DNA of 32,398 bases from Chloroflexota bacterium (GTDB lineage: Bacteria; Chloroflexota; Anaerolineae; Aggregatilineales; Ch27): the NCBI GenBank assembly GCA_019873685.1, contig JAIOAT010000045.1, forward strand, positions 1-32,398, in the 5' to 3' direction. The notes beneath the pieces are model-generated. The model searched no databases and was not told the DNA's origin. It saw nothing but the letters and a program-made list of their open reading frames with translations. Each line of letters opens with the position of its first letter. Within the stretch, counting starts at the first letter, position 1. This document shows positions 3,912 to 22,464 of this stretch, one piece after another. The position numbers and the translations under genes were made by a program.

Positions 3912-3921
3912 GACCGCCTCC

Positions 3922-6731: not shown

Positions 6732-6756
6732 GCCTCCGGGCCTGCGATCAGGCCCG

Positions 6757-8118
6757 TCAATCTGCAATCCAGGTCCACGACGGCGGTGCGGTGTAGGTCA
6801 CGCTGATCGTCTGCCCCGCCGCCAGGCGAAAGCTGCCGCCCGGCAGACGGGTGGATCGCCCGGCGATAGCCACATCGCTGACCACCCCGCCGCTGAGATA
6901 AACCATCACCGGGGCGTGAAACGGGTTAACCAGCACCGCATCGCTTTCCGGCAACGGCGGTGCTTCCAGCACGCCCCCGCCCAGGCTGTCGATCTCCACG
7001 GCGGAACACGTCGGGCCGACGGCGTACATCCCGGCAGCGGCATTGTGAATGTGGTTGGCGCTGCACATGGTCTTGGTCACATGACGCGCCAGGTGTACAC
7101 CGTAACGGAAGCGAATCGGCCCGCCCAGCGTAAAGACTTTGTTGGCGACAATGGTCAGCTTGCTGATGCCCGCCGGAACATCACTTTCCACGAAGATGCC
7201 GTCGAAGGCGTTATCCTGTTCCAGCCGGTCGCCCAGGATCGCATTGCCGGAGATCAGGAGTTGCCCCCACGGGCCGGAGTCAGCCTGCGTGGTGCGGGTG
7301 ACGATGATCCCATGCTGGCGGTTGGCGTTCAGATCGTTGGCCGCCACGATCACGCTATAGGCCGTCTGCGTGATCAGGATGGCCGCCCGGTGGTTGCCGT
7401 ACAGATCGTTGTTGACCACCCGCACGCCGCCGTTATGGATTTCCACGCCATATTCACAATCATGGATGTAGCACTGGGCCACCACGTGGTCGATGCCGTT
7501 GATGTCCAGCAGCACCCCCGCCCCGCCACAATCGCTGATCCGGCAGCCGGTCACGCTATCCTGGCTGGCCCGGTTGGCCATGCCGGAAAAACCGATGCGC
7601 AGCCCGTGCCCCTGACAATCGTGGATATACAGGCGCTCGAAGAAACTGTAGTAGGCGGTGGTGAAAAGCCCTTCCCCGCCCTCCGGGCAGTGCTCCCGAT
7701 TGCCGTCGATGGCAAAGTCGGCCAGATGCACCCGTCCGAAGGCGTAGGCTCCGGCCCGGCCCGCCGCCGAGTCAGTCAGGACAGGGCCGCGGCTGCCATC
7801 GCCCAGCCGGATCGTCGCCACGTTCATCCCCGCGCCCAGCAGGTTGACCCCATCGCGCAGCAACAACGGCCCATCGACGCGGTAGACGCCCGCCGGCAGG
7901 AAGACATGACCACCGCCAGCGGCGCTGCACGCATCAATGGCCGCCTGGATAGCCGGGCGATCATCAGCCAGGCCATCGCCCCGTGCGCCATAAGGAGCCT
8001 GACGCACGTTGAGAGCCAGGCTATCCAGGCGCGCCGCCAGCGTTTGATCGTTGGCGTTCCAGATCAGCCGTCCCTCGTTCGGTGTGGCCGCAGCAGCGAC
8101 TTCACGAATGGTCATCAT
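6757..8118 (-). CDS. Right-handed beta-helix protein, pectate lyase superfamily
   Basis: The 453-residue protein begins its fold with APYGARGDGLADDRPAIQAA and GGGHVFLPAGVYRVDGPLLL, the standard opening of the Pect-lyase_3/phage-tail-spike-like beta-helix family, followed by coils with repeated N and G turns. Members cleave, epimerise or bind polysaccharides; no catalytic site was identified. It has no signal peptide of its own, although relatives in such loci are usually exported. Directly upstream, and overlapping its ATG by ATGA, is a 71-residue ORF that is little more than a Tat leader, so export may depend on that leader or on a frameshift. ATG codons exist at 8118 and 8115; AGAGG is three or six bases away. 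It is followed by the kinase fusion gene 25 bp downstream. Confidence 0.78.
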   Translation of the reverse strand: MMTIREVAAAATPNEGRLIWNANDQTLAARLDSLALNVRQAPYGARGDGLADDRPAIQAAIDACSAAGGGHVFLPAGVYRVDGPLLLRDGVNLLGAGMNVATIRLGDGSRGPVLTDSAAGRAGAYAFGRVHLADFAIDGNREHCPEGGEGLFTTAYYSFFERLYIHDCQGHGLRIGFSGMANRASQDSVTGCRISDCGGAGVLLDINGIDHVVAQCYIHDCEYGVEIHNGGVRVVNNDLYGNHRAAILITQTAYSVIVAANDLNANRQHGIIVTRTTQADSGPWGQLLISGNAILGDRLEQDNAFDGIFVESDVPAGISKLTIVANKVFTLGGPIRFRYGVHLARHVTKTMCSANHIHNAAAGMYAVGPTCSAVEIDSLGGGVLEAPPLPESDAVLVNPFHAPVMVYLSGGVVSDVAIAGRSTRLPGGSFRLAAGQTISVTYTAPPSWTWIAD

Positions 8119-8330
8119 CGCCCTCTCTCGCCCGGCTCTTCGCCGGTGGAAGCGGGGAAGTCAGCAAACGGCCATGCCAGCCGCGCAAGGGTCACATCCT
8201 CCTGCCCCCAGGCGACAAACACGGGCCGTTCCGCAGTTGCACTGGCGATCAAACCGCTGCTCGTGGCAAGCGCCAGCACACCGGCGCACCACAGGAACTC
8301 CCGGCGCGACCACCGATCAGCGAGCGGCAT
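8115..8330 (-). CDS. Small protein with twin-arginine signal peptide
   Basis: A 71-residue ORF starts at ATG 8330, six bases after a strong AGGAGG, and overlaps the end of the glycosyltransferase gene by 14 bp. It opens with MPLADRWSRREFLWCAGVLA: an S-R-R-x-F-L twin-arginine motif, a hydrophobic stretch and ASATA as a likely cleavage site. Only about 38 residues remain after cleavage, Pro- and acid-rich at the end (STGEEPGERGR). The TGA overlaps the ATG of the beta-helix gene. Either this is a genuine small exported protein, or it is the Tat leader of the beta-helix protein separated from it by a frameshift; the good ribosome site favours real translation. No homologue was recognised. Confidence 0.62.
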   Translation of the reverse strand: MPLADRWSRREFLWCAGVLALATSSGLIASATAERPVFVAWGQEDVTLARLAWPFADFPASTGEEPGERGR

Positions 8331-9489
8331 CGGGCGCCTCCTGCAATAGCGGTGTCTGGCGCGGCGCATCCCCGACGCCGGGCCTGACGATCGATCGGTA
8401 CAGCGCCAGCAGATCAGCCGTGCACGCTTCCCACGTCGGTAGCGCGACCGCGCCCGCGTCTGCGTTGCGATCCAGCGCCAGCAATTCCAGCAACGCCCCG
8501 GCCACTGCTTCCGGCCCGGCATCCGGCGGGACAGCCCGCACGAGCGGGTAGCGAGTCAGATCGCTCAGCGCCGAAGCGTCATTGACCAGCAGCGGGCAGC
8601 CCAGCGCCAGCGCCTCGGTCGCGCCAAGCCCCTGTGACTCGTAGTCGCTGAGCAGGGCCACGGCCCCGGCGCTGGCCAGCAGGCGGGCCATCGCCTCCCG
8701 GTCGGCGCTGGAAATCGCCCCGATCTCCACGCGCTCAGCCACGCCCAGCTCAACCGCCAGCCGCCGCAGTTCCGGCTCGTATGGCCCCGTACCGACAATG
8801 CGCAGCCGCGCTTCTGGCTGACGGGCCAGCACGCCGGGCAGGGCGGCGATCACGCGCTGGTGGCCCTTGTAACGCTCCAGGCGTCCCACCGAGACAATAA
8901 GACTGTCCGACAATACAGCCGGTTGCCGGGGGAGACGCGGCAGGTCGGAGCCGTTGGGGATGACGACGATCTTCCCGGCGGGCAGTCGTAGCAGCGCGCT
9001 GAAGTGACGACGTTCAAACTCCGAGACGGCGATCAGGCGGCTGGCGCGGGCCAGCAACGGGCGCAGCATGCCGATCTGGACGCCGCGCAGAGCCTGGCGC
9101 AGTCGGGAGGAATGCCCGCCGCTGTGGAAGGTGAGCACATAGGGGACCCGGGCACGCAGAGCCGCCAGCATGGCCAGCGGCGCGACCAGCGTATGGTAGC
9201 CCTGGCAATGCACCACATCCCAGCGCCCCTCCGCAATCACGCGGGCCAGACCGGGCGCGAAGTAGTAATCGCGCCCCTTCGGCCAGGCACGCACTCGGCG
9301 CACCGGTACGCCCGCCATGTCCTCAACGGGCAATAGCTGGCCTCCGGGGTCAGTGGTAAGTACGGTAACATCTATCCCGCTGGCAGCCAGCCGGCTGGCT
9401 ACCTGGAAGGTATGCATCTCGGTGCCCCCCACCAGTGGAAAGTAGCGGGCGGTCACCTGCAGCACACGCAGGGGGGTATCAATTGTCAT
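8317..9489 (-). CDS. Glycosyltransferase family 4
   Basis: The 390-residue GT-B enzyme has an N-terminal acceptor domain beginning VLQVTARYFPLVGGTEMH, a typical GT4 opening with a GG turn, and a C-terminal donor domain with VGRLERYKGH (201-210) and the EX7E motif (E284 and E292 in YESQGLGATEA). Family members transfer a hexose or similar sugar from an NDP-sugar to a lipid-linked acceptor on the cytoplasmic side. The ATG at 9489 follows the preceding gene by 29 bases and has only a weak ribosome site (GAAGG), so this gene may be expressed at a lower level than its neighbours. The sugar specificity cannot be read from the sequence. Confidence 0.9.
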   Translation of the reverse strand: MTIDTPLRVLQVTARYFPLVGGTEMHTFQVASRLAASGIDVTVLTTDPGGQLLPVEDMAGVPVRRVRAWPKGRDYYFAPGLARVIAEGRWDVVHCQGYHTLVAPLAMLAALRARVPYVLTFHSGGHSSRLRQALRGVQIGMLRPLLARASRLIAVSEFERRHFSALLRLPAGKIVVIPNGSDLPRLPRQPAVLSDSLIVSVGRLERYKGHQRVIAALPGVLARQPEARLRIVGTGPYEPELRRLAVELGVAERVEIGAISSADREAMARLLASAGAVALLSDYESQGLGATEALALGCPLLVNDASALSDLTRYPLVRAVPPDAGPEAVAGALLELLALDRNADAGAVALPTWEACTADLLALYRSIVRPGVGDAPRQTPLLQEAPDAAR

Positions 9490-9518
9490 AAGAATTTCTA
9501 CAAACCTTCTATTTGGGA

Positions 9519-10532
9519 TTACGGCGCCGTCTCTGAGTAAACCTGTTCCCTGCCGGTCAACGCCTTCCCGGCGTGATCGGGCTTAAACCGCCATAACTGC
9601 ACCCTGCCTACCACATAACCAGCTACAGTCCAGGCCAGCCCGGCGACAATCATGGCCGCGCGCGCCAGCCCTCCTAGATCGCGGCGCAGGGCGTCCCCCA
9701 CACCGCGCCAGATACCCCGCGGCAACGTCCTGAGCGTATACGAACGCTCACTGGCCAGCCCGTCCCGGCTGCCCACAAAACGCGCCACCAGCGCCTTGGA
9801 TAGCCCTTCGGCATAGCAACGTGACATGAAATATGCGATCCGCCCCCGGCTGGCCGGGACACGGTGCAGGACGCGCGCGCCTGGCTCGTAGAGCAACACG
9901 CCCTCTGTCCAGCGCTGCTGGACGCGGATGCACAGCTCGGTTTCCTCGCAGCCCAGCGGGCGCGTACCGATGCGCCCGATCCCGTCCCTGAAACCGCCTA
10001 CGGCCTCAAACACTTCCCGGCGGAAGGACATGTTGCAGCCGATCAGGTTACGCACCGGCGCCGTTGACTCCGGCAGGCCGCGATAGCTGCACCCGACCAC
10101 CCACTGAAATTCCTCCGGCAGCCAGGCCGGGCGGCCAGCGAGCCACAGCGGCTCGATCAGCCCGCCCACTCCCAATACCGCCGGATCGGCGTAAGCCGCG
10201 CTGAGGCGTTCCAGCCAGTCGGGCGCGGCCACCGCGTCTTCATCCACAAAGGCGATGATCTCACCCCGCGCCGCGGCAATGCCGCTGTTGCGTGCGCCGG
10301 ATAACCCCTGCGCCTGCCGGTTTTCCACCACCACGACGCCCTCAGGGCCAAACTGCGCACGGGAGCGCGCCAGCAACGCCGGGTTGTGATCGATGACCAC
10401 GACGATCTCCCGCGGCGGGAGCGCTTGCCGCTGCACCGAATCCACAGCAGCAAGCAGCTCCTGCCAGCGCGCTTCCGTGTAAGCGCAGATGACCACGCTG
10501 ATATCGGCAACCGCCTGAGCCATAGACCCCAT
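9519..10532 (-). CDS. Glycosyltransferase family 2 with C-terminal membrane segment
   Basis: The 337-residue GT-A protein has the GT2 opening ISVVICAYTEARWQELLAAV, the segment LSGARNSGIAAARGEIIAFV and the DED metal-binding motif at 97-99 (FVDEDA). A later stretch with GCEETELCIRVQQR matches the ED/acceptor region of GT2 enzymes. Near the C-terminus AAMIVAGLAWTVAGYVVGRV forms one probable membrane span, so the enzyme is likely anchored to the inner face of the membrane. The ATG at 10532 is three bases after the stop of the upstream GT2 gene; a second ATG at 10523 is possible. Its donor and acceptor are unknown. Confidence 0.88.
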   Translation of the reverse strand: MGSMAQAVADISVVICAYTEARWQELLAAVDSVQRQALPPREIVVVIDHNPALLARSRAQFGPEGVVVVENRQAQGLSGARNSGIAAARGEIIAFVDEDAVAAPDWLERLSAAYADPAVLGVGGLIEPLWLAGRPAWLPEEFQWVVGCSYRGLPESTAPVRNLIGCNMSFRREVFEAVGGFRDGIGRIGTRPLGCEETELCIRVQQRWTEGVLLYEPGARVLHRVPASRGRIAYFMSRCYAEGLSKALVARFVGSRDGLASERSYTLRTLPRGIWRGVGDALRRDLGGLARAAMIVAGLAWTVAGYVVGRVQLWRFKPDHAGKALTGREQVYSETAP

Positions 10533-10535
10533 CCG

Positions 10536-11375
10536 TTAGCGCCCGGCGTCCATGTACTGGCCCGCCGCCACCGCGCTGACCGGCTCTTCCACCACCACCG
10601 GCGGGCGGCGAGTCAGGAAGCGTTCCCGCAGGATCGTCTTGAGGACGCGGATACCTACCGGGATGGTCTTGAGGTTGCTCTGGCCGTGGATGCGCCGCGC
10701 TTCGAAGCTGGGCACTTCCGCCACCCGCAGGCCGCGCAGCAGCGCACGCACGTTCATCAGCGTCTCGATCTCGAAGCCATCGGCGTCCAGATCAAGCACC
10801 GGCACGACATGCGCCCAGAAGGCGTTATAGCCATAGCACAGGTCAGAGTAGCTACCGCCGCACAGGACACGGACCATCAGGACAAAGGCCAGGTTACCCA
10901 GCCGCCGGTACAGTTCCATGTCGGCGGTGCCGCCGCCCTGCAGGAAGCGCGACCCCTTGACGAAATCCGCCCCGGCCAGCAGGGGGCCAATGTAGGACGG
11001 GATTTCGCCCGGATCGGTGGAGCCGTCTGCGTCGAGCATGACGATGATGTCGCCGGTGGCGGCGGCGAAGCCGGTACGCAGGGCGGCGCCCTTGCCGCGC
11101 CCTTCCTGCATCAGGATGCGGATGCCCGGATACAGCTGGCGGGCGACCTCAATCGTGTTGTCTTTGGAGTGCCCGTCCACCAGAATGACCTCGTACACCC
11201 ACTGCGGGATGCGCGGCAGGACGTACGGCAGGTTTTCGGCTTCGTTCATCGCCGGGATGATCACACTGACTCTGACTCCCCCGGCCTGTTCAGGGCTCGC
11301 GTAGGGCGGCGTACCCGCGGCCTGGCGACGAGTCCAGTTACTGGCGAACATTGAAGAGGCAATTGAGAGTTCCAT
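10536..11375 (-). CDS. GT2 glycosyltransferase, dolichyl-phosphate mannose synthase-like
   Basis: The 279-residue protein matches the DPM1/polyprenyl-phosphate glycosyltransferase pattern: VSVIIPAMNEAENLPYVLPR, VILVDGHSKDNT, GRGKGAALRTGF and the metal-binding DADGS (115-119). There is no C-terminal membrane domain of the GtrB type, so it resembles the short soluble form. Such enzymes move mannose or glucose to a polyprenyl phosphate, or act as ordinary GT2 enzymes. It is the first gene of the minus-strand operon. The ATG at 11375 has AGGTGG five bases ahead and is preferred over a GTG at 11384. The first 33 residues are poorly ordered and rich in Ser, Ala and Pro, which is unusual for the family. 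Confidence 0.88.
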   Translation of the reverse strand: MELSIASSMFASNWTRRQAAGTPPYASPEQAGGVRVSVIIPAMNEAENLPYVLPRIPQWVYEVILVDGHSKDNTIEVARQLYPGIRILMQEGRGKGAALRTGFAAATGDIIVMLDADGSTDPGEIPSYIGPLLAGADFVKGSRFLQGGGTADMELYRRLGNLAFVLMVRVLCGGSYSDLCYGYNAFWAHVVPVLDLDADGFEIETLMNVRALLRGLRVAEVPSFEARRIHGQSNLKTIPVGIRVLKTILRERFLTRRPPVVVEEPVSAVAAGQYMDAGR

Positions 11376-11527
11376 AAAAGCCACCTTAGATCAATTCTGC
11401 TCAGGTCTTGCTCCGGCCTGGATGAATAACGGACCTTGAACGGAACATGACCGGCTGGCATCCTGACATGACTCCACCCGACAATGTTATGCACAAGACC
11501 GCAATCCGGATTACTAGCGACTAAAAT

Positions 11528-11563
11528 GTTAAATCAAGGCAAAGCCTCATAAAAGGATTTAAC
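11528..11563. repeat. AT-rich nested inverted repeat upstream of the glycan operon
   Basis: GTTAAATC at 11528-11535 is matched exactly by GATTTAAC at 11556-11563, and inside them AGGC-AAA-GCCT forms a second small hairpin. The element sits about 150-190 bases upstream of the first glycosyltransferase start in an unusually AT-rich stretch. It may be an operator or a leader RNA structure. No convincing promoter pair was found in 11376-11689 apart from this AT-rich zone; the rest of that gap holds no gene that I can support. Confidence 0.4.
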
Positions 11564-11689
11564 CACATCCCGGTCGCCAGCCGGTCTCAAAAGTGGTCAC
11601 AAAAAGTCTTAAAACGACCTATTTTATCGCAATTGTCACGCTGGATAGCTTCTTACTGCGCTTCTTGCGCCGTTTTTCCCACCCGGTGC

Positions 11690-11749
11690 AAAAAAACGAG
11701 GCCCCGACCGGAAGCGCGCCTGCACGGCCCGCTGGCCCGGTCAGGGCCT
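11690..11749 (-). terminator. Rho-independent terminator of the response regulator gene
   Basis: On the minus strand a 13-bp stem (AGGCCCTGACCGG with CCGGTCGGGGCCT, one G-U pair) closes a 25-base loop that can itself fold, followed by CG and seven T residues (A7 at 11690-11696 on the plus strand). It lies 45-104 bases after the response regulator stop. The U-tract makes this the most convincing intrinsic terminator in the window, and it isolates the regulator from the glycan operon. Confidence 0.8.
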
Positions 11750-11793
11750 GCATGCCTGCCATTGCCTGGGTTCCGCCCGCCCGTCACGGCGGT

Positions 11794-12471
11794 TCAGCCG
11801 CTGAACAGATATCCTTCCCCCGGCACTGTCTGAATATAGATGGGACGGTGCGGGTCTGGCTCGATCTTGTTGCGCAAACGGTACACCACATTCTTCAACA
11901 GCGCGCCGTCCACGTCCCCCCGATAGCCCCACACCACGTCAATGATGTGCCCGGAATCGAGCACCTGATTGGCATGGGCCAGCAACAGTTGCAGCACCCG
12001 GCATTCCAGGTAGGTCAGCCTGACCACTGTGCCGTCGGCGCGGATGACCTGCCGCCGCGTCGGGTCCAGCCGGAAGCTCAGCGGCCCCTTCATTTCCTGA
12101 CCACCGGCGGCCAACCGGGATTGCCGCAGCCATACCGCGATCTTGGCCAGGAATAGCGACGGGCTGAGCGGCCTGACGATGCACTCTTCCACTCCGGCCT
12201 CGTAAGCCGCCAGCACGTACCCCTCATCCCCTCTTGATGTCAACAGCAGCATCGGGCTGGTGGTCTGCGGGCGGATCTGCCGGCAGAGCGCGATACTGTC
12301 CTGCTCCTGCGCATAAATATCGATAATGACCAGCGCGTATGAGCTTTCCTGCAGACGCTTGCCTGCTTCCTGCGTCGTCCTGGCGTGCGCCACTTCAAGC
12401 CCTCTCTGGCGCAGCGCATAAGTCCAGATTCCCCCGATTTCCGGGTTATCACTGATCAGCAACACACTCAT
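11794..12471 (-). CDS. OmpR-family response regulator with atypical receiver
   Basis: The 225-residue protein has a receiver domain (1-115) and an OmpR/PhoB winged-helix DNA-binding domain (about 128-225; RLTYLECRVLQLLLAHANQVL and NVVYRLRNKIEPDP). The phosphoacceptor Asp is D51 (VIIDIY) and T78 is present. The acidic pocket is reduced to D8-N9 instead of two acids, and the conserved Lys is replaced by Arg (R100 in VRPLS). Phosphorylation may therefore be weak or absent. No histidine kinase gene is adjacent. ATG 12471 has GGAGGAG upstream. It could regulate the glycan operon that begins 420 bases downstream, but only position supports that. Confidence 0.88.
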   Translation of the reverse strand: MSVLLISDNPEIGGIWTYALRQRGLEVAHARTTQEAGKRLQESSYALVIIDIYAQEQDSIALCRQIRPQTTSPMLLLTSRGDEGYVLAAYEAGVEECIVRPLSPSLFLAKIAVWLRQSRLAAGGQEMKGPLSFRLDPTRRQVIRADGTVVRLTYLECRVLQLLLAHANQVLDSGHIIDVVWGYRGDVDGALLKNVVYRLRNKIEPDPHRPIYIQTVPGEGYLFSG

Positions 12472-12616
12472 TGACCGACTCCTCCTACACCAGCAACGTC
12501 ACCTGTTGGGAGGGCGGCATTGTCGGCTACGGTCTCCGGTCGAGCACTAGACTCCCGGAAGTTTGGTCAACTCCTTTCACTACGACCGTACAGGCAATGG
12601 CGGCAGTACCAACACA

Positions 12617-12645
12617 ATGATAAAATTTGATTAGATCAGTCTAAA
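12617..12645 (-). promoter_or_regulatory. Probable sigma-70 promoter for the response regulator, with overlapping palindrome
   Basis: On the minus strand TTTAGA (12645-12640) and TATCAT (12622-12617) are separated by 17 bases, giving a start near 12610 and a leader of about 140 bases. The palindrome TTAGA-TCAG-TCTAA (12631-12644) overlaps the -35 box and spacer and could be an operator, possibly for autoregulation. The stretch is clearly more AT-rich than its surroundings. This and the hairpin at 12711-12747 are all I see in the gap 12472-12863. Confidence 0.5.
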
Positions 12646-12710
12646 TTACTAGTAGCAGGAAGTCAACCCCCGAATGGCACAAAACTTTCTGTCCAGGCTA
12701 TCCAGACAGC

Positions 12711-12747
12711 AGACGGCGGGAGGCATCCAGCTTTCCTCCCGCCGTCT
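12711..12747 (-). terminator. GC-rich hairpin after the shikimate dehydrogenase-like gene
   Basis: A perfect 13-bp stem (AGACGGCGGGAGG with its complement) encloses an 11-base loop, 117 bases beyond the stop of the minus-strand gene. There is no U-tract on the minus strand and only TTTC on the plus strand, so it may be a weak terminator or an RNA-stabilising hairpin. Confidence 0.5.
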
Positions 12748-12863
12748 TTCGCCAGGCCACAGCTGCAATCTGGTGAGGGAATTACATCGCAATTTCGTGG
12801 GCCAACAGGCTCTGGTCGCGGGCGTCCCACGTCATCCGGCTATGCGCTCCGGTGACACTCCCA

Positions 12864-13832
12864 TCACTTCCGGACGCTCTCCGCTGCGGCGGCCAGCCGC
12901 TGAAAGAGCGCATCATCCAGATCGATGTGCAGCACCTGAGCCACCACCTGCGTCCAGCCGTGCAGGAAGTATAGCCAGCCGTCTTCCACGCGGATGTTGC
13001 GCGACTCCACCTGAGCCAACGCCTGATGCATAAAGTCCAGTTCGCCCCGGTAGTTGAACTCCCAGGCGATCCCGTTGAGCGGGAACAGCCCGGCATCCGT
13101 GATAGGCGAGCCGGGGATATCCTTGCCCATCCCGGTGGCGTTGATCACAATGCTGTAGGGCGGCAGTGTCGCCATGATCGCATCGTTCCTGACCGGGTCC
13201 TGGTTGCAGATGTACTCCACCTCGATGTCAGTCTTGAGCTGCTCGACCATCGCCTTCATGCTGTCCAGCCGCCCCTGCGAGCGATTGACCACGATGAAAC
13301 GCCGGGGCCGATCCGCCGCGTCGGGTTTGTTGATCAGGTGCAGCAGGGTAGCTACCGCCGACCCCCCCGCTCCGAAACACAGGACATGCCCGCCCGTCCG
13401 CCCGAAGTAATCTTTGCCGATGATCGCGTCCAGGCTCAACCCGGCAGTGATGGGGTCTTTGGCGTGGCCTTCCAGCTGGCCGTTACGCTTGGAGATGCAG
13501 GAGACCTCGCCGCAAATCTGGGCGTAGGGATCGGCGTAGTCGAACATATCGCGAGCCGCCTGGAAAAGGTCGATCTTATGGGTAGTCACCAGCGCCCCCA
13601 GCGAGAGCGGATCGTACTTGATCTGCGCGACGGCCTGGCGGTAAGCCTGCGGCTCGTCGTGAATCTTCAGGTCGACCCCTTCAATCACGATCTCAGGCCG
13701 CCCCAGTTCGCGCATCCACAGTGGAAAGACCTTCATAATCGAGGACTTCCCGGTGGTCACGCCAATAAAATAGAACGTGGGGGTGGTCTTGGTCACGATC
13801 GTGTATCCGGAAACGGTTCGGGTTTCTGCCAT
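12864..13832 (-). CDS. Shikimate dehydrogenase-family oxidoreductase, divergent
   Basis: The 322-residue protein keeps the AroE architecture: catalytic Lys in LVTTHK (K86), Asp in AKDPITAG (D126), the Rossmann loop FGAGGSA (153-159), the NADP-type VVNRS (181-185) and NATGMG (231-236). The usual N-terminal substrate motif with HS.SP is replaced by GVTTGKSSIMKVFP, and the NTD motif by KDP, so the substrate may not be shikimate. It is about 40-50 residues longer than typical AroE. It stands alone, far from any other aromatic-pathway gene. The ATG at 13832 has AAGGAG ten bases ahead. An authentic AroE is possible but the substrate pocket argues for a related hydroxy- or oxo-acid dehydrogenase. 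Confidence 0.75.
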   Translation of the reverse strand: MAETRTVSGYTIVTKTTPTFYFIGVTTGKSSIMKVFPLWMRELGRPEIVIEGVDLKIHDEPQAYRQAVAQIKYDPLSLGALVTTHKIDLFQAARDMFDYADPYAQICGEVSCISKRNGQLEGHAKDPITAGLSLDAIIGKDYFGRTGGHVLCFGAGGSAVATLLHLINKPDAADRPRRFIVVNRSQGRLDSMKAMVEQLKTDIEVEYICNQDPVRNDAIMATLPPYSIVINATGMGKDIPGSPITDAGLFPLNGIAWEFNYRGELDFMHQALAQVESRNIRVEDGWLYFLHGWTQVVAQVLHIDLDDALFQRLAAAAESVRK

Positions 13833-14096
13833 CGTCCTGATCTCTCCTTGTCACTTCCGCCGTAGCGCGTCCGGGCGTCACCGCAGTCGCCGGATGGCGT
13901 GAGTCAGACAGGCGCATCGCGGAGATGAAAACGGGGAGGATAAGCGCACGTCCAGCCAGGCCAGGCAGCAGCGCTTACTGAGTGTTGCCCGCCCGAAAAA
14001 CGCCGGACACCCGGTTGCTCTGAATTGTCACCGGGGAGAGCGACCATGTCAACCGTCAGGCGGCATGACTGTACCGTAACATTAGGCCTATCCTGA
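13833..14096. other. Gap without a supported intact gene
   Basis: This part of the gap between the dehydrogenase-like gene and the cytochrome remnant holds no recognisable gene. A 16-codon ORF at 14046-14096, preceded by GGGGAGAG, lies in the same frame as the cytochrome c remnant and could be its old start after an internal deletion. No CxxCH haem motif was found here. Confidence 0.4.
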
Positions 14097-14273
14097 CCGC
14101 CGGAACTGAATAGCGATCAGGATCATCGCACCTTCATCACCGGGCGGCCAATCTGAGACGCCGCTAACACGACCGGCGTGGATATGCCGCCGCGCGGCGG
14201 TAACCCCGCCCTGAGCAACGAGGACATCCTGAAGATCATCGCTTACCTGCGCAGCCTGCAATCTGCGCCATAG
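14097..14273 (+). pseudogene. 3' remnant of a cytochrome c gene with in-frame TGA
   Basis: The plus-strand frame reads FITGRPI, then TGA at 14154-14156, then [15 protein letters not shown] and [20 protein letters not shown] to a TAG at 14271-14273. This is the C-terminal third of a class I cytochrome c: the Met haem ligand (ATG at 14184), the PPRGGNP loop and the closing helix. In relatives the position of the TGA is usually an aromatic residue, most simply TGG (Trp), so one base change explains it. The CxxCH haem-binding half is missing upstream. The fragment therefore cannot make a functional cytochrome. It faces the KimA-like gene, ending 80 bases from that gene's stop. Confidence 0.78.
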
Positions 14274-14353
14274 GCATCCGGCGTCAGTGCCCCGGAAGTC
14301 CCCGCCGTGACCCGACCACGACTCCTGGGACAACGCCGCAGCCTCCGATCCCG

Positions 14354-16189
14354 TCACTCGCGCAAGTACAGAGGAAAGTCGATGATCGCCCGCACCCGGC
14401 CAAAACGCCGCCGCCGGTACAGCAGCGCCAGCTTGAGCAACCAGGCCGTCTGGTTGTGCAGCAAATTCTGCCACCAGTGGGCCGGGACAAACTCCGGCAG
14501 CAGAACGGTCGCCAGCTGGCCATCGTTGCTTTCGCGATCTGTCTGATCCAGGTATTCCAGCAGCGGCCCAACAACCGACCGATAGGGACTGGGCACGACC
14601 ACCAGGGCGACATCCTGCCCCCAGCGGCCCCATTCCTGGCGGAGCCGGTCGCCATCACCGGGGTTCACCTCCACATAGACGGCAGTGACCCGATCAGAGA
14701 TTGAGCGGGCATAGCGCAGCGCTTCCACCACGCCCCGGTGCACGCCGGAGATCGGCAGGACAACGCGCGGCGCGCGTAACGGCGAGATGTCCGGCAGCGC
14801 GTTGCGCAGCGTCAGTTCGCGGGCTATGTCCCGATAGTGGGCTTTGACAGTGCTGAAGCCCCAGATGATCAGCGGCAGCATCACCAGAACCATCCATGCG
14901 CCATCAACGAACTTGCTGACGGCAACAATGACGGTGGTGACTGCCGTAGCCGCTGCCCCCACGCCGTTGATCAGCGCCTTCATTCTCCAGCGCGGGCCGC
15001 GCACCCGCAGCCAGTGGATGACCATCCCGGCCTGGGATAGCGTGAACGCCAGAAAGACCCCCACCGCAAACAGCGGGATCAGCGCGTGGGAATCGCCCCC
15101 GAACGCTACGATCAGCAGGCCACTGAAGCCAGCCAGCACCAGCATCCCGTTGGAGAAGACCAGCCGGTCGCCCAGCAGGGCCAGCTGGCGCGGCAGGTAA
15201 CCGTCCCCGGCCAGGACAGAGGCCAGGCGGGGGAACCCGGCAAAGCTGGTATTGGCCGCCACCACCAGTATCGCCAGTGTGGCCACCTGCACCAGCACAT
15301 ACAGGACATTGGCGCCCAACACCCGCCGGGCCAGAGCCGAAAGGATCGTCTCCTCCGCGCTGGCGACCACCCCGAAGTACTGAGTCAGGCCGATGCTGCC
15401 CAGAAAGAGGATGCCCATCAGAACAGCCATTACAGCCAACGTGGTATTGGCGTTCTTGACCTCCGGCGGCCTGAACACCGGGACGCCGTTCCCGATGGCC
15501 TCAATACCGGTCAGGGCGGTACAGCCGGACGCCAGGGCGTGCAACACAAGGAACGTGGTCACCGGCTCCTGAGCCGGCGGGGCCGTCCGGGCGAAAGCGC
15601 CGGGGCCTTCGACAACGGCTCTGACCAACCCTATAACCAGCATTCCCAGGTAGAAGAGCAGGAACATATATACCGGGACAGCCATCACCGTCCCGGACTC
15701 GCGTACGCCACGCAGATTAGCCAGGGTGATCAGCGCCAGGAACAGCAGCGCCAGCCCTGTCCGATGCGGCCACAACTGTGGGAAGGCGGAGGCAATCGCC
15801 GCCACGCCAGCCGTCAGGCTGACGGACGCCGTCAGCACATAGTCAATCAACAATGCGGCAGCAGCGGCCAGTCCCACCCATGGCCCCAGGTTCTCGCGGG
15901 CAACGGTATACGACCCACCGCCGCCAGAATACGCCTGCAACGCCTGCGAGTATGACAGCGCGACAATGATCAGCAGCGCGGTGATGGCCAGCCCGATCGG
16001 CCACATATAAGCCAGACCCGCCGCGCCAGCTACGGCCAGCCCCAGGAAAATTTCCTGGTTGGCATAGGCGATCGACGAGAGCGCATCCGGCGAGAAGGCG
16101 GCCAACGCCCGAACTTTGTTCAGCCGTTCGCCAGCAAGTTGCTGCGTGGGAAGCGGCGGCCCGATCAATAGATCGCGTAAGGCATGCAT
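14354..16189 (-). CDS. APC-superfamily permease, KimA-like potassium transporter
   Basis: The 611-residue protein has about 12 membrane spans followed by a cytoplasmic C-terminal domain of some 150 residues (from about residue 455: RAPRVVLPISGVHRGVVEALRY). The N-terminal KVRALAAFSPDALSSIAYANQEI is characteristic of the KimA/YdaO group, high-affinity proton-coupled potassium importers of about 600 residues; in Bacillus KimA is controlled by c-di-AMP. The C-terminal domain resembles a universal-stress-like fold. The ATG at 16189 was chosen because the preceding 38 codons (from a start at 16303) are Arg-rich and unlike the family, and the length then fits. An amino-acid permease is the alternative. 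The gene is divergent from the Crp/Fnr regulator. Confidence 0.75.
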   Translation of the reverse strand: MHALRDLLIGPPLPTQQLAGERLNKVRALAAFSPDALSSIAYANQEIFLGLAVAGAAGLAYMWPIGLAITALLIIVALSYSQALQAYSGGGGSYTVARENLGPWVGLAAAAALLIDYVLTASVSLTAGVAAIASAFPQLWPHRTGLALLFLALITLANLRGVRESGTVMAVPVYMFLLFYLGMLVIGLVRAVVEGPGAFARTAPPAQEPVTTFLVLHALASGCTALTGIEAIGNGVPVFRPPEVKNANTTLAVMAVLMGILFLGSIGLTQYFGVVASAEETILSALARRVLGANVLYVLVQVATLAILVVAANTSFAGFPRLASVLAGDGYLPRQLALLGDRLVFSNGMLVLAGFSGLLIVAFGGDSHALIPLFAVGVFLAFTLSQAGMVIHWLRVRGPRWRMKALINGVGAAATAVTTVIVAVSKFVDGAWMVLVMLPLIIWGFSTVKAHYRDIARELTLRNALPDISPLRAPRVVLPISGVHRGVVEALRYARSISDRVTAVYVEVNPGDGDRLRQEWGRWGQDVALVVVPSPYRSVVGPLLEYLDQTDRESNDGQLATVLLPEFVPAHWWQNLLHNQTAWLLKLALLYRRRRFGRVRAIIDFPLYLRE

Positions 16190-16280
16190 ACACACCCATC
16201 TCCCGCTATCCATGTCCGGGAATCCGTTATAGCGCCGCCGGGGAGCGCGTGCCAATCGCCCCCGCCCTGCCATCCGCGCC

Positions 16281-16309
16281 TTGCGTGCCCCGACCTGGCG
16301 CATTACGAT
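16281..16309 (+). promoter_or_regulatory. Possible promoter of the Crp/Fnr gene
   Basis: TTGCGT (16281-16286) and TACGAT (16304-16309) are 17 bases apart. Transcription would start near 16316, giving a leader of about 30 bases before the ATG at 16345, which contains the GAGGAG ribosome site. It lies in the divergent interval with the KimA-like gene. Confidence 0.4.
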
Positions 16310-16344
16310 CGTTCAGGATAGCGTCCTGTTGTGAGGAGCGAGCC

Positions 16345-17097
16345 ATGGTTTCCCACCGCCGCACCCCGGTTGAGCCGGAATCGATCACCCCTCATCTGTG
16401 CTCGCTGGACCTGCGCCTGCACATCCTCAAAGGGCTGCCCTTTTTCGCCGGGCTGCCGGAGGAGGATATCGCCGGGATCAACGCCCGCTTTCACGAACGC
16501 GGCTATGCGCCGGGAGAAACCATCTTCTACGCTGGAGACCCCGTCAAACGGCTGTATGTCGTCGCCTCCGGTAAGGTTAAGCTGCTGCGCCACACGCTCA
16601 GCGGCCAGGACGTTCTGCTGGACATCCTGGCTCCCGGTGAGTTCTTCGGTAATCTTTCCGCGCTGGGCGATGACGTGTACCCCGACACGGCCCAGGCCCA
16701 GACGCTAACCTGCGCGCTGAGCATCGAGGCGGACGTCTTCCGCCAGATCATGGCCGCCTACCCGGCCGTCGCCCTGGCTGTAGTCGACATCATGAATGAG
16801 CGCCTGCGCGCCGCGCATGAGATGATGCGCCAGCTCAGCGCCCATACTGCCGAGCAACGCATCGCCCACACCCTGCTCAAGCTTGGCGAGAAACTCGGTC
16901 AGCCGGCGGATGTTGGTCTGCTGATCCAGATGCCGCTTTCCCGCGAGGATGTGGCGGCCATGGCCGGGGCCACCGTAGAGACCGCCAGCCGGACGCTGAG
17001 CCAGTTCAAGAAGGCCGGGCTGATCCGCAGCGGGCGGCAGTGGGTGGCCCTGGCCGACCCTGACCGTCTGAGAGCCATCGCCGAAGGCGACGCCTGA
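16345..17097 (+). CDS. Crp/Fnr-family transcription regulator
   Basis: The 250-residue protein has an N-terminal cyclic-nucleotide-binding-type beta-barrel (about 25-145; GYAPGETIFYAGDPVKRLYV, GEFFGNLSALGDD) and a C-terminal winged helix-turn-helix (about 185-235; PLSREDVAAMAGATVETASR). The Fnr cysteine cluster is absent, with a single Cys near residue 19, so a 4Fe-4S oxygen sensor is unlikely. The cAMP-contacting Arg-Ser-type residues of true CRP are not evident either, so the ligand is unknown. ATG 16345 follows GAGGAG by six bases; the in-frame GTG at 16249 lacks this. The next gene downstream starts after a near-perfect palindrome, so the regulator may control the metal-efflux pair. Confidence 0.88.
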   Translation: MVSHRRTPVEPESITPHLCSLDLRLHILKGLPFFAGLPEEDIAGINARFHERGYAPGETIFYAGDPVKRLYVVASGKVKLLRHTLSGQDVLLDILAPGEFFGNLSALGDDVYPDTAQAQTLTCALSIEADVFRQIMAAYPAVALAVVDIMNERLRAAHEMMRQLSAHTAEQRIAHTLLKLGEKLGQPADVGLLIQMPLSREDVAAMAGATVETASRTLSQFKKAGLIRSGRQWVALADPDRLRAIAEGDA

Positions 17098-17160
17098 CCC
17101 CGCCCCGCCAGCGTCCTGATCTTCCCTGAATGCCAGAAATTCCCGGCCAGTTGTGGCAAA

Positions 17161-17180
17161 CAGTGCAATTAATTGCGCTG
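17161..17180. promoter_or_regulatory. 20-bp near-perfect palindrome upstream of the metal-efflux genes
   Basis: CAG-T-GCAATTAATTGC-G-CTG is symmetrical over 20 bp with one mismatched pair; the central 12 bp are perfect. It lies 73 bp upstream of the HMA start and 63 bp after the regulator stop. A possible -10 box TATGCT is at 17209-17214 without a good -35, which fits an activator-dependent promoter. The adjacent Crp/Fnr protein is the obvious candidate binder, but the sequence is not the canonical TTGAT-N4-ATCAA or TGTGA-N6-TCACA. Confidence 0.6.
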
Positions 17181-17252
17181 GATCATGTTACCTGCCTGCG
17201 GAAGGCGCTATGCTGGCGTCATGACCGCTGGAAATGAAGCTGGAGGTTAGCG

Positions 17253-17468
17253 ATGAAAACCGTTCTCCGCAGTCAGGAACTCACCTGCCCGTCCTGTGTG
17301 GCCAAGATCGAAAAGGCCCTCAAGGCGCTGGATGGCGTCACCGAGGCCCGGGTGTTCTTCAACACGGGTCGGATCGAGGTCGACCATGATAGCAATCTGG
17401 TCAGGGCCGACGATCTGGTCAAAGCTATCCGGGCAGCCGGCTACGAAGCACGTGTGACGCCCTTCTAG
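17253..17468 (+). CDS. Heavy-metal-associated (HMA) domain protein, copper-chaperone-like
   Basis: The 71-residue protein is a single ferredoxin-like HMA domain. The metal-binding loop is LTCPSC (Cys at 13 and 16), followed by VAKIEKALKALDGV and a second half ending AIRAAGYEARV, the normal length for CopZ-type chaperones. GGAGG lies six bases before the ATG. The P-type ATPase 104 bp downstream lacks any N-terminal HMA domain, so this protein probably serves as its metal-delivery or sensing domain in trans (inference). The metal is soft (Cu, Zn or Cd) by family but not determined. Confidence 0.92.
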   Translation: MKTVLRSQELTCPSCVAKIEKALKALDGVTEARVFFNTGRIEVDHDSNLVRADDLVKAIRAAGYEARVTPF

Positions 17469-17495
17469 CACGGGACGATTGAAAACCGCGGCTGT

Positions 17496-17525
17496 GCGCC
17501 CCGCCCTACCCACCGGACGGGGCGC
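17496..17525 (+). repeat. Intercistronic hairpin between HMA and ATPase genes
   Basis: A perfect 8-bp stem GCGCCCCG/CGGGGCGC with a 14-base loop lies in the 104-bp gap. It has no U-tract, so it may act as partial attenuator or stabiliser that lets the small HMA protein be made in excess over the pump. Confidence 0.45.
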
Positions 17526-17572
17526 GCCAGCCAGCTGGCAGCCATGACCTGGCAGGGAGCAAACCAACCACC

Positions 17573-19522
17573 ATGACCGTACTACGCAATCTTCTGGAAA
17601 ACCCTCGCCGCCTGCGCGAGGCGCTGACAATCGGCAGCGGGGTGCTGATCGCCGCCGCCCTCCTGGCCGGCAACCTGCCGGGCGGCGCTGCCTGGTACAA
17701 CGTTCTGATGGCCGCCGCTGCGCTCGTCGCCGGGGCCGATATCGCCGCCCGCGCCGCGCGCAGTCTGCGCAACCGCCACATCAGTATCGAACTGCTGGTG
17801 ACCATTGCCACTGCCGGCGCACTGCTGATCGGCGAATACTGGGAAGCGGCAGCGGTGACCTTCCTCTTCATGCTGGGCGCTTACCTGGAAGCCCGCACCC
17901 TCAGCCGCACCCGCCAGGTGCTGCAGAGCCTGCTGGACCTGGCGCCAACGACGGCCATCGTCCTGCGCGACGGGCGGCAGGAAGAAGTCGCCCCCGGTGA
18001 GGTTGCCTTTGGCGAAACTGTCCTGATCAAGCCCGGCGGCAAGGTCCCGGTCGATGGCGAAGTCATCGACGGGCGCTCCGCCGTAGACGAAAGCATGATC
18101 ACCGGCGAGCCAATCCCGGCGGAAAAACAGCCGGGTGCGCCGGTCTTCGCCGGGACGATCAACCAGGCCGGTCTGCTGGTCGTCCGTGCTACTGGCGTCG
18201 GGATGGATACCACGCTGGCCCGGATCATCCGCCGCGTGGAAGAAGCGCAGGACGAAAAAGCCCCCACCCAGCGCTTCATCGAGCGCTTCGCCCGGTGGTA
18301 CACGCCTTTCATCATCGCCCTGAGCGGCCTGTTTTACCTGCTCACGCGGGATGTCGAGCTGGCCCTGACCATCCTGGTCATCGGCTGTCCGGGCGCGCTG
18401 GTCATCTCCACGCCGGTCTCGGTCGTGGCCGGGATTGGCCGTGCCGCCAAGAGCGGCATCCTGATCAAGGGCGGCGAACACCTGGAGAACGCCGGCAAAA
18501 TCTCCGCCCTGGCCCTGGACAAGACCGGCACCCTGACCGCCGGGCGTCCACAGGTAACCGATGTGGTCGCCCTGCAACCGCTGGCCGTCGCCGCAGGACT
18601 GGAAGTTACTGAAGCAGACGCCGCTTATCCGCCACCTGCCCCCGTCGCACCGGATGGTCGCTGGACGCCTGAGCAGGGCGAGGTCCTGCGCCTGGCTGCC
18701 ATCGCCGAGTCCGGCTCCGAGCATCCGCTGGCGCGCGCCATCCTGGACGAAGTGGCGGGTCAGGACGCCCTCCCGGCAGCTAACAGCTTTGAGACATTCA
18801 CCGGCAAGGGCATCCAGGCGGAATACCTGGCGCAGACTATCCGCGTCGGCACTGCTGACTGGCTCTCCGGACTGGGTATCGCCATCCCGGCGGAAGCGCG
18901 GACCAACCTCAACCGGCTGCAGAGCGCCGGCAAGACGGCCGTCCTGGTGGCGGTTGACGACCTGGTGATCGGCATCCTGGGCATCGCCGACACGCTGCGC
19001 CCGGCAGCCCCTGAAGCGATCCGCCGGCTCAGGGCAGCCGGGGTACGGCGAATCGTCATGCTCACCGGCGATGACCGGGCCACCGCCGAAGCCATCGCCG
19101 CCGAAGCCGGGATCACGGAAGTCCACGCCCGCCTGCTGCCGGAGGACAAGCTGGAAGCCATCCGCCGCCTGCAGCGGGAAGGGCATGTCGTGGCTATGAT
19201 CGGCGATGGAATCAACGATGCTCCGGCTCTGGCTGCCGCCGATGTCGGGATCGCCATGGGCGCAGCGGGCACCGATGTAGCCATTGAGACCGCCGACATT
19301 GCCCTTATGGCCGATGACCTGCTCAAGCTCCCGGAGGCTGTCCGCTTTTCCAGGGCCACACTGACCAACATCCGCCAGAATATGCTGGTGGCGCTGGTCA
19401 CCGTGACCGGCCTGCTGATTGGCGTGATCGCCGGTGAAGTACATATGTCCGGCGGGATGCTCGTCCACGAAGCCTCGGTGCTGCTCGTCATCCTCAACGG
19501 GATGAGGCTGCTGCGCCTGTAG
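17573..19522 (+). CDS. P1B-type heavy-metal translocating ATPase with CPG motif
   Basis: The 649-residue pump has the actuator TGEP (177-180), phosphorylation site DKTGTLT (316-322), the P1B-specific SEHPLARAI, and hinge GDGINDAP. Eight membrane spans are predicted (two N-terminal extra spans before 70-110). The membrane metal site reads IGCPGALVISTPV (CPG at 272-274) where Cu, Zn and Cd pumps normally have CPC, and the last span carries HEASVLLVILNGMRL. The metal therefore cannot be assigned confidently. There is no N-terminal HMA domain; that role is taken by the separate upstream gene. The ATG at 17573 has AGGGAG about 14 bases ahead, a poor spacing. The protein likely exports a divalent or soft metal ion from the cytoplasm. 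Confidence 0.93.
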   Translation: MTVLRNLLENPRRLREALTIGSGVLIAAALLAGNLPGGAAWYNVLMAAAALVAGADIAARAARSLRNRHISIELLVTIATAGALLIGEYWEAAAVTFLFMLGAYLEARTLSRTRQVLQSLLDLAPTTAIVLRDGRQEEVAPGEVAFGETVLIKPGGKVPVDGEVIDGRSAVDESMITGEPIPAEKQPGAPVFAGTINQAGLLVVRATGVGMDTTLARIIRRVEEAQDEKAPTQRFIERFARWYTPFIIALSGLFYLLTRDVELALTILVIGCPGALVISTPVSVVAGIGRAAKSGILIKGGEHLENAGKISALALDKTGTLTAGRPQVTDVVALQPLAVAAGLEVTEADAAYPPPAPVAPDGRWTPEQGEVLRLAAIAESGSEHPLARAILDEVAGQDALPAANSFETFTGKGIQAEYLAQTIRVGTADWLSGLGIAIPAEARTNLNRLQSAGKTAVLVAVDDLVIGILGIADTLRPAAPEAIRRLRAAGVRRIVMLTGDDRATAEAIAAEAGITEVHARLLPEDKLEAIRRLQREGHVVAMIGDGINDAPALAAADVGIAMGAAGTDVAIETADIALMADDLLKLPEAVRFSRATLTNIRQNMLVALVTVTGLLIGVIAGEVHMSGGMLVHEASVLLVILNGMRLLRL

Positions 19523-19525
19523 ACA

Positions 19526-19552
19526 GGCCCGGGGATCGCCACGTCCCCGGCC
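19526..19552 (+). terminator. Hairpin after the ATPase gene
   Basis: GGCC-C-GGGGA pairs with TCCCCGGCC (nine pairs, one bulged C) just four bases after the ATPase stop codon. There is no U-tract, so it is a possible terminator or 3' stabiliser only. Confidence 0.45.
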
Positions 19553-19632
19553 ATCGGCATAAGTCCATACGCCGCTTGGCTTCCGGCAAGGTGCCCCGGC
19601 CCATGCGACCGGGACGCCGCCATTACGGGTGG

Positions 19633-19661
19633 TTGCCGCCCGGTCGGTTCTCCCCTAAGAT
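19633..19661 (+). promoter_or_regulatory. Probable promoter of the PASTA protein gene
   Basis: TTGCCG (19633-19638) and TAAGAT (19656-19661) are separated by 17 bases, each matching four of six consensus positions. A start near 19668 leaves a leader of about 50 bases containing the AGAGGAA ribosome site before ATG 19718. Confidence 0.45.
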
Positions 19662-19717
19662 AGCGGTGTAGACCAATCACTCCGCCCGGCGAGACACAAC
19701 CGGACAAGAGGAACGCC

Positions 19718-20821
19718 ATGAGAATCGCGAAGATCATTGCCTGCCTGCTGGCGCTGGTCGGAATGCTCAATACGGCACCGCTGATCGCTCAGGCTCAGGA
19801 TGGCCCGTCAGCATCTGTCCCCGATCTCACCGGTCTCAGCGTCCCGGCGGCGGCGGCCAGCCTCAACCGGGTCGGGCTGGCGCTCGGCCCGCAGATCGAC
19901 CAGCCATGGACGGAAGCAACGGGATTGCCGCCCAACACGGTCGTCGGCCAGGACATCCCGCCCGGTCAGGCGGTCGCCGCGGGCACCGCAATCGGGATCA
20001 CCGTCCTGCGCTCGCCCAATGTCCTGCTGCTCTACGACGCGGAAGGCATTACCCTGATCAACCAGAGCGGCGCAGACCTTGACCTGAACGGCCTGATTTT
20101 CACCGCCCTGGACGGCAACACGCCCGCCGCGTTCCCGGCGACCAACTGGCTGCCCGGCCTGTCAGCGGGCGATTGCGCCCAGCTCTGGGCGGTACGGCGC
20201 ACCGGCCCCTCCCGCCCGGCGGAATGCCGGGCCATCCAGCGCTGGCTGAGCACGGTTAATCCGGCTGTGCACTTCTGGACTGGCGCTAACGGCGTGACCC
20301 GCTTCAGCGTGAACTACGGCGGCGTCGAACGGGCGACCTGCCCCGCTGCGCCGCCCGGCGCCGGGCAGCAACGCTGCGCCTTCTTCCTGCCGGCGGGTGT
20401 CGCTGCTGGCGACGTGACCGAATACATTTACCTGGCGTATACGAGCGACCGCCTGATCGTGTTCAACCAGACTCAGGATCGCTGGATGCCGCTGCAGGGG
20501 GTAAAGCTCTACAACTACAACCCGAATGTAATCATCCGTGGCGCGGAGCTTACCGTCAGCGATCCCGGCCTGTATGCGATCCTCAACCCGGCAGCGGATA
20601 CCAGCCGGCTGGCGCCGGGGCAATGCCTGTTCTTCACCAACAGCAGCCCGGAAGCCACTACGCCGCCCCAGCCCTGCGAGGCGATCGCCCGCCTGGACAT
20701 TGACCCCAGCCTGGTCTTCTGGGCCGCCGACTTCGAGGTGGGCAGCGTGACTGATGGCCAGCGGCATTCCTGCCCGGCTGCCAGCCCGGACAAGCTCACG
20801 CTGTGCATCATGCCCCGTTAG
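19718..20821 (+). CDS. Secreted PASTA-domain protein with duplicated four-Cys module
   Basis: The 367-residue protein has a Sec signal peptide (1-26, ending IAQAQ) and one PASTA domain (about 33-97; VPDLTGLSVPAAAASLNRVGL and VVGQDIPPGQAVAAGT). The remainder is two copies of a module that I do not recognise by name, about 102-222 and 245-365. Each has four Cys with almost the same spacing: C153, C170, C208, C220 and C303, C320, C352, C363 (17, 38, 12 and 17, 32, 11). Conserved surroundings include GDCAQLW/GQCLFF, VHFW/LVFW and ATCPA/HSCPA. Disulfides are likely in the exported protein. PASTA domains bind peptidoglycan fragments, so wall attachment is plausible. It lacks a kinase domain. AGAGGAA precedes the ATG. 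Confidence 0.82.
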   Translation: MRIAKIIACLLALVGMLNTAPLIAQAQDGPSASVPDLTGLSVPAAAASLNRVGLALGPQIDQPWTEATGLPPNTVVGQDIPPGQAVAAGTAIGITVLRSPNVLLLYDAEGITLINQSGADLDLNGLIFTALDGNTPAAFPATNWLPGLSAGDCAQLWAVRRTGPSRPAECRAIQRWLSTVNPAVHFWTGANGVTRFSVNYGGVERATCPAAPPGAGQQRCAFFLPAGVAAGDVTEYIYLAYTSDRLIVFNQTQDRWMPLQGVKLYNYNPNVIIRGAELTVSDPGLYAILNPAADTSRLAPGQCLFFTNSSPEATTPPQPCEAIARLDIDPSLVFWAADFEVGSVTDGQRHSCPAASPDKLTLCIMPR

Positions 20822-20900: not shown

Positions 20901-22433
20901 TCAATCGTCATCGTGGTCGTCATCCCGGTCAAAATGGCCGGGATGCACGCCAAATTCGCACTTGGCTCGCCAGCCATGCGCTGGCGCCCAGGGCGGCGGC
21001 GGATTGTTGCACTCGCCATCGCGCCAGACCTGCCCCGGCGCATTGATGTAGATGTCCACGTCCACAATGACCACTACAGCCGCAATGATCACCGTCAGGC
21101 CATCATCGTCGCGAACGCCGCCATCCACCCGCACGTGGTCGCCGACGCGCAGCGCGATCAGGATCGGGTCCGCGGGATCAAGCGTGATCTCAAACCCGTA
21201 GATGACGATGACATTGCCCCGGATCTCCACGACCGGCCCTTCGATCACGACCACAATCGGCAGGTCCGCTTCGCCGCCCTGATAGAACACGGTATCGGTG
21301 TCGGTGACTGCCGACGCGCCAGCCGTAGCCGTCACCGTCGCTGTGTTCTGTTGCTGGCCTTCCACCGCCGGGGATGGCCCCAGGATGCACTCGAACCCGT
21401 CACCCGGCGCCAGTTGCTCCGGGATGGTGCAGCCAGCCAGGGCAAAGGCAGGATCAGCCAGGGTAATGCCGGTCAGGGCGGCTGTGCCGTTATTGGTCAC
21501 CACCAGCTTGAACAGCACATCCTGCCCGACAGTCGCACGCGGGCCGGGGGCTGTATCGGCGTCATGCCAGACAGAACCACCGTTGACCGAAACGAACTTC
21601 TCGATGTCCACCGCCGGGCGTTCGCCGCCAAAGTAATAGGCGCTGTCGGCATCGCTGACCGTCCCGCCGCCAAACTCCGCCGTGACCGAGGCCGTATTGA
21701 CCTGCTGGCCCGCAGCTACCGGGAACGGCCCGGTGGGACACTCAAAGAACATGCCCGGCGCCAGCGTTGTAGGTACAGCGCAGGCTGCCAGATATGCGGG
21801 ATCGCTCAGGCGAATCTCGCCCAGCTCAACATCGCCGCTGTTGGTGACTGTCAAGCGGAAGGACACCTGCCCATCCAGCGGCACAGACGGCCCCGGCGCA
21901 CTGTCGGCGTCCGCCCAGGTCAGCCCGCCGTCAGTGGACACAAACTTCTCCAGCGTGACGGCCGGTCGGGCGCAGGCCGGGCCGGGAATCGTGCCTGCCT
22001 GGAACCCGTTGCCGTCCTTGACTGCCACGCTGACTGTCCCCTCAGCGATGTTGCCGGAAAGCGTCAACGTGTAGGTGCGGGTATCCGTCACCAGCAGTGG
22101 CACATCCCACTTGATCCCATCAATGCCAGTGGTCGGATCAACGCCAAAGCTGACCCCGCGCGCCGGGCTGTAGCCGACCACCTGTAATGGCGGATCGCAG
22201 CTTGGCAGACCCAGGTCAAAATGGCTCAGGTCAGGCGGTTGGCTCGTCCCGGCCACGGTATAAGTGAAGGTCGTCTGGTCGGTAGTGTCGTTGTACACCC
22301 GGCCACCGTAGCGCACCTCGAAGCTGCCCAGCCGCAGCCCACTATCTGGCCCCTGCGCCCGCGCCGGAACCGGAACGGGCAGCAGGCAAAGCACGAGGAT
22401 ACCGAGCAACAGTGCACGCCATTGTTGACCCAT
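20901..22433 (-). CDS. Secreted DUF11-like repeat protein with Asp/His-rich tail
   Basis: The 510-residue protein has a Sec signal peptide (1-27, ending ARAQ), an N-terminal domain (about 30-155) with FTYTVAGTSQPPDLSHFDL and paired Cys, and two DUF11-like beta repeats (about 157-268 and 274-387), each opening with EKFVS..GG..W.DAD.APGP. A region with GDHVRVDGGVRDDDGLTVII (about 430-450) resembles a small OB-like DUF5666 segment. The tail holds CNNPPPPWAPAHGW and ends HFDRDDDHDDD, which may bind metal ions. It is probably an extracellular adhesion or wall protein. ATG 22433 follows GGAG by eight bases; the GTG at 22442 would overlap that site. Confidence 0.8.
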   Translation of the reverse strand: MGQQWRALLLGILVLCLLPVPVPARAQGPDSGLRLGSFEVRYGGRVYNDTTDQTTFTYTVAGTSQPPDLSHFDLGLPSCDPPLQVVGYSPARGVSFGVDPTTGIDGIKWDVPLLVTDTRTYTLTLSGNIAEGTVSVAVKDGNGFQAGTIPGPACARPAVTLEKFVSTDGGLTWADADSAPGPSVPLDGQVSFRLTVTNSGDVELGEIRLSDPAYLAACAVPTTLAPGMFFECPTGPFPVAAGQQVNTASVTAEFGGGTVSDADSAYYFGGERPAVDIEKFVSVNGGSVWHDADTAPGPRATVGQDVLFKLVVTNNGTAALTGITLADPAFALAGCTIPEQLAPGDGFECILGPSPAVEGQQQNTATVTATAGASAVTDTDTVFYQGGEADLPIVVVIEGPVVEIRGNVIVIYGFEITLDPADPILIALRVGDHVRVDGGVRDDDGLTVIIAAVVVIVDVDIYINAPGQVWRDGECNNPPPPWAPAHGWRAKCEFGVHPGHFDRDDDHDDD

Positions 22434-22449
22434 AACAGGCACTCCAGAC

Positions 22450-22464
22450 GAGATGACTCATCTC
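22450..22464. promoter_or_regulatory. Perfect 7-1-7 palindrome in the leader of the DUF11-like gene
   Basis: GAGATGA-C-TCATCTC lies 17 bases upstream of the minus-strand ATG, next to the ribosome site. It could be an operator or a hairpin that covers the ribosome site region. No regulator is identified. Confidence 0.4.

Follow-up and report, generated by a model that had tools for sequence, protein, structure and literature searches.

A cytochrome c gene stub in an Anaerolineae genome as the probable scar of one large deletion that removed a nitrous-oxide-reductase module

To our knowledge, no enzymatic sink of N2O other than nitrous oxide reductase is known, and close relatives differ in whether they carry it. 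The window analysed here (32,398 nucleotides, the whole of contig C45 of a draft genome, G000, which comprises 109 contigs and is 96.75% complete) contains a fragment of a c-type cytochrome gene that is very probably the scar left when one large deletion removed a nos module. The fragment is a pseudogene by deletion: the sister genome G001, the only one of the same genus in the comparison, carries the intact orthologue at the same site on its contig C2, which was aligned to the window and is colinear with it on both sides. The direction of change would be loss rather than gain, because G000 retains the end of the cytochrome gene; this ancestral state is read from one sister together with the stub, and the junction from a draft contig. 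The features are collected in Table 1.

Table 1. Features at and around the deletion site, in window coordinates.
Feature	Position	Strand	Remarks
Left neighbour, aroE-like (shikimate dehydrogenase-like), intact	12864..13832	-	98% to G001:C2:12950-13915
16-codon ORF	14046..14096	+	ends TGA 14094-14096; former intergenic DNA upstream of the lost module
Deletion junction	14107..14136		about 14131 likeliest; left matches G001 to 14212, right from 23083
Raised divergence from G001	14131..19800		covers stub, permease, crp and heavy-metal P-type ATPase genes; about 5.7-5.8 kb
3' stub of nos-cluster c-type cytochrome gene	14134..14273	+	Met-ligand loop and C-terminal helix; stop TAG 14271-14273
In-frame TGA	14154..14156	+	TGG (Trp) in G001; Trp in 14/14 printed homologous copies
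Right neighbour, APC-family amino-acid permease-like, intact	14354..16303	-	PF13520 E 2.1e-26; 85% to G001:C2:23247-25082

A first-pass annotation had seen in this interval what is left of a cytochrome c gene, with a nonsense codon and with its CxxCH half gone, and both parts of that description are borne out. Translation of 14046-14273 gives an MPPRGG loop, a C-terminal helix and the TGA at 14154-14156. In a search of 41 related genomes the stub found the intact cytochrome c of G001 with 89% protein identity over 45 residues (E 3.7e-22), in a gene that ends at G001:C2:23222, and cytochromes of other genera with up to 79% identity. The reverse search with the G001 cytochrome returned window positions 14109-14270 (E 1.9e-21), and as DNA the stub and its G001 counterpart are 84% identical, ungapped, over 14134-14263. 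Going by these matches in both directions, the similarity to cytochrome c is not due to chance. The Pfam profile PF00034 on its own gives a weak match below the cut-off (E 0.014, 17.1 bits), because only about 45 residues of the cytochrome are left. Set against a class I cytochrome c (PF00034/PF13442), the stub has the Met-ligand loop and the C-terminal helix, and its reading frame is broken by the TGA at an invariant Trp, which stands in the string RPIWD in all 14 of the homologous copies printed. No CxxCH lies in frame upstream of the stub, the G001 counterpart being CTACH, and what remains of the gene in the window is its last ~46 codons. The annotation had also pointed to the syntenic interval in a relative; there G001 has an intact, longer gene.

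The boundaries of the missing DNA were drawn from blastn colinearity and from pairwise alignments of both flanks. Window positions 3-14129 are colinear with G001 106-14212, positions 14134-14263 correspond to G001 23083-23212, and from 14358 onwards the window follows G001 from 23248 onwards; at the junction G001 has 8870 bp of extra DNA that is missing from the window. Similarity of the left flank to G001 can be followed as far as about 14130, and the match to the cytochrome becomes clear at 14134-14136, with six junction bases, ACCTTC, that are not clearly matched to either side. The cytochrome protein alignment can be extended leftwards to 14109, but as DNA that stretch fits the left flank better. 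The string TCATC is present at both G001 breakpoints, which makes microhomology at the join possible. On the left, the aroE-like neighbour matches aroE profiles weakly, falling far short of the aroE cut-off, and finds nothing in Pfam at E 1; against the wider set of genome contigs it finds relatives in Anaerolineae at up to 79%, none of them from this genus. A second copy of it, 50% identical, lies at G000:C3:120407-121366. On the right, the permease-like gene probably has its true start near residue 38, its best homologues beginning at residues 31-42. The distance from the stub's stop to the permease gene is 84 bases (14274-14357), against ~25 in G001. In G001 a minus-strand hydrophobic frame, seen as a translation only, spans the left breakpoint (~14170-14330).

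What G000 is missing can be read from its sister, where the block runs crp-crp-nosZ-membrane protein-nosD/nosF-nosY-ytkA-cytochrome c and, by its family matches, is a complete clade II (Sec) nitrous-oxide-reductase module. The G001 NosZ has 662 aa and scores 807 bits with the Sec-dependent model TIGR04246 (cut-off 625). NosD and NosF form one protein of 788 aa, with 393 bits to TIGR04247 (cut-off 300) and an ABC_tran ATPase; the NosY-like protein is an ABC-2 permease with a match to ABC2_membrane_2, and a YtkA-like protein, two Crp/Fnr-type regulators and the CTACH cytochrome complete the block. A membrane-like protein of 229 aa stands after nosZ in the place of NosB and is kept there in relatives; as a putative NosB it reached the cut-off of no family model. 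Nine regions from relatives were searched with the G001 proteins. Five (G002, G005, G010, G023 and G031) have the full order from crp-crp to the cytochrome, and G004 has crp-crp-nosZ up to the end of its contig. Three genomes of genus g11 (G011, G022 and G037) share the core of nosZ, membrane protein, nosD/F, nosY and cytochrome; in these three ytkA was not detected and crp homologues lie beyond the cytochrome or were not seen. The cytochrome has two domains in tandem in most relatives and one in G001 and G023, and the cytochromes closest to the stub sit 3' of nosZ in their genomes. The module's c-type cytochrome presumably passes electrons to NosZ. Crp/Fnr regulators have been linked to clade II nosZ in an earlier proposal (PMC11539149). 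The window has a Crp/Fnr gene and, after it, a gene for a heavy-metal P-type ATPase at 16249-19522 (TIGR01525, 586 bits, and above the cut-offs of both the Cd and the Cu subfamily); this pair lies beside the lost copper-enzyme module and is present in both sisters.

The module was also sought in the rest of G000. The G001 NosZ has no match there at E 1e-10 and the NosD family has none; the NosZ profile gives a single match of 20 bits, near the heme-copper oxidase gene, and does the same in G001. At the DNA level nothing in G000 matches the first 4788 bases of the missing block, and the rest of the block finds only the stub and short stretches resembling ABC ATPases. A nos copy elsewhere in G000 was thus rejected at the protein, DNA and profile levels for the 97%-complete assembly, though one in a missing piece is remotely possible. 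A clade III (lactonase-type) NosZ as a replacement was likewise rejected, the matches being below cut-off and equally present in the sister. Each of the two genomes has one heme-copper oxidase subunit I.

The sequence of events that we favour, the single large deletion, would have started from an ancestor in which a clade II nos module separated the aroE-like gene from the permease gene. DNA lying 5' of the first crp gene would have been joined to the cytochrome gene some 46 codons short of its end, in an illegitimate join that was probably assisted by microhomology. By the measure of G001 this would have removed 8870 bp, comprising the two regulators, nosZ, the nos accessory genes and the upstream portion of the cytochrome gene. 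The stub, without its heme-binding half, would then have drifted, TGG becoming TGA. The predicted outcome is an organism that keeps its heme-copper oxidase and should have lost N2O reduction.

The DNA to the right of the junction differs from G001 more than the rest of the window does: divergence is 18% in the tract and 10% elsewhere, and the left edge of the tract lies at the deletion junction (Mann-Whitney P 9e-9 for 250-base bins, tract against rest). A change-point scan of the whole alignment chose 14000-19999 as the best interval, with 0 of 300 permutations as strong, and a 500-base scan has divergence returning to ~10% beyond 20 kb. Gene by gene, with the short ORF 22221-22721 omitted for want of an orthologue, the permease, crp and ATPase genes have dS values of 0.62-0.70 and the other colinear genes values of 0.22-0.48. 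This pattern suggests that the tract is likely a recombinant segment in one of the two lineages, and it is perhaps tied to the deletion as one recombination event.

Such an event, a specific form of the deletion, we regard as possible and hold only tentatively. Homologous exchange near 19.8 kb and an illegitimate join near 14131 would have replaced ~5.7 kb with DNA from a hypothetical donor, a diverged relative, and deleted the nos genes in the same step, the imported DNA bringing in the cytochrome end and the permease, crp and P-type ATPase genes. The raised dS and divergence begin at the junction, in a tract that the change-point scan picked unprompted, and homology-facilitated illegitimate recombination is described, in the excerpted text of PMC3240628, for three competent species and for conjugation in E. 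coli. As set out there, that process predicts an exchange tract that ends at an illegitimate junction, with deletion possible, which is the pattern seen in the sequence here. However, an earlier import, in either lineage, with its left end inside the missing 8.9 kb would look identical. The tract edge at the junction may therefore mean either that import and deletion were one event or that the true edge lay inside the missing block. If the one-event form is true, a trait that consumes a greenhouse gas was erased in a single step through the exchange of alleles between related lineages.

The step in divergence also bears on a different account, in which contig C45 was falsely joined in assembly and the organism still has its module. 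The genome is a draft, and a chimeric contig could likewise give a change in divergence from G001 at the junction. We nevertheless consider this improbable: no piece of the module was found on any other contig, the stub has an in-frame stop at an invariant Trp, and the return of divergence to ~10% past 20 kb would not be explained by one false join.

The age of the loss can be approached through the stub itself. Under NG86, over 14142-14270 and with the stop excluded, 19 of its differences from G001 are synonymous and 3 are non-synonymous; in amino acids there are 3-5 changes plus the stop. Neutral drift for half of the G000 branch at dS 0.65 would be expected to leave 15 non-synonymous differences, with P ~2e-4 for three or fewer. 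At dS 0.4 the same test is marginal (P 0.017); neutrality for at least half of the branch is rejected if local dS is at least 0.65. Because the divergence of the stub is mostly synonymous, we infer that the loss was recent relative to the split of G000 and G001, a rough estimate from 43 codons. The same small number of amino-acid changes might be taken to mean that the stub still works as a short gene, or that its TGA is read through. That view has next to nothing to commend it, since no cytochrome c can form with the CxxCH heme site absent, and the conservation is accounted for by the recent loss.

The first-pass annotation had offered yet another origin, an internal deletion within a single cytochrome gene that joined its old start, a short ATG ORF of 16 codons in frame upstream of the stub, to its old end; we give it practically no credence, as synteny refutes it, the upstream ORF being intergenic DNA that G001 keeps 5' of its nos module, more than 8 kb from where the intact cytochrome gene begins. 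In the G001 layout the counterpart of this ORF, in the same frame with GTG for ATG, has the aroE-like gene on one side and the first crp gene on the other. It was never the cytochrome start, because it stands on the other side of the deletion junction. That there was a deletion holds, with 8870 bp lost where a start-to-end join within one gene had been envisaged, and the hint that this lineage lost a respiratory gene stands as regards respiratory function, the extent being the whole nos module, with the cytochrome gene losing its 5' part. The annotation was thus partly supported: right in kind, and wrong in scale and in the role given to the upstream ORF.

The G001 cluster, with its nosZ, nosD/F/Y, post-nosZ membrane protein and terminal cytochrome c, matches clade II nos clusters, whereas the window keeps only the last ~46 codons of the cytochrome. 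Chloroflexota, mainly Anaerolineae, are known clade II and non-denitrifying N2O reducers (PMC11409646). By gene content, G001 looks like one of these and G000 like a relative that has lost the trait. Loss of the nos regulon has precedents, long-term in Neisseria and through phase variation in Azospirillum, as cited in excerpted text of PMC4250227, and in those cases, too, the whole N2O-reduction step is lost where relatives keep it. They are nirK organisms, whereas here the search for a Cu nitrite reductase gave nothing above noise in G000 or G001, so that what was lost was probably N2O reduction as a stand-alone trait. Events of this kind are known, and the present one is a clear new example of nos loss and not a new system. 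Its value is that the loss can be seen with both breakpoints, with the site still intact in the sister and with a scar that is young, in uncultured Anaerolineae that seem to be stand-alone N2O reducers; a trait lost as one block cautions against predicting N2O reduction from genus membership.

Some smaller observations were made along the way. In a different genus, G037:C62:12853-12981 (L025) has a relative of the same cytochrome in a frame of 74 aa; the matching stretch contains a TAA, the frame as printed lacks an intact CxxCH, and this is possibly another decayed copy. A second candidate remnant, at G004:C324, was set aside as uninformative, its 33-aa frame being cut by the contig end. Finally, at the edge of the contig, window positions 3-352 give many overlapping matches in several registers to the start of the matching G001 contig and lie in a long open frame, which looks like part of a gene for a repeat-rich protein.
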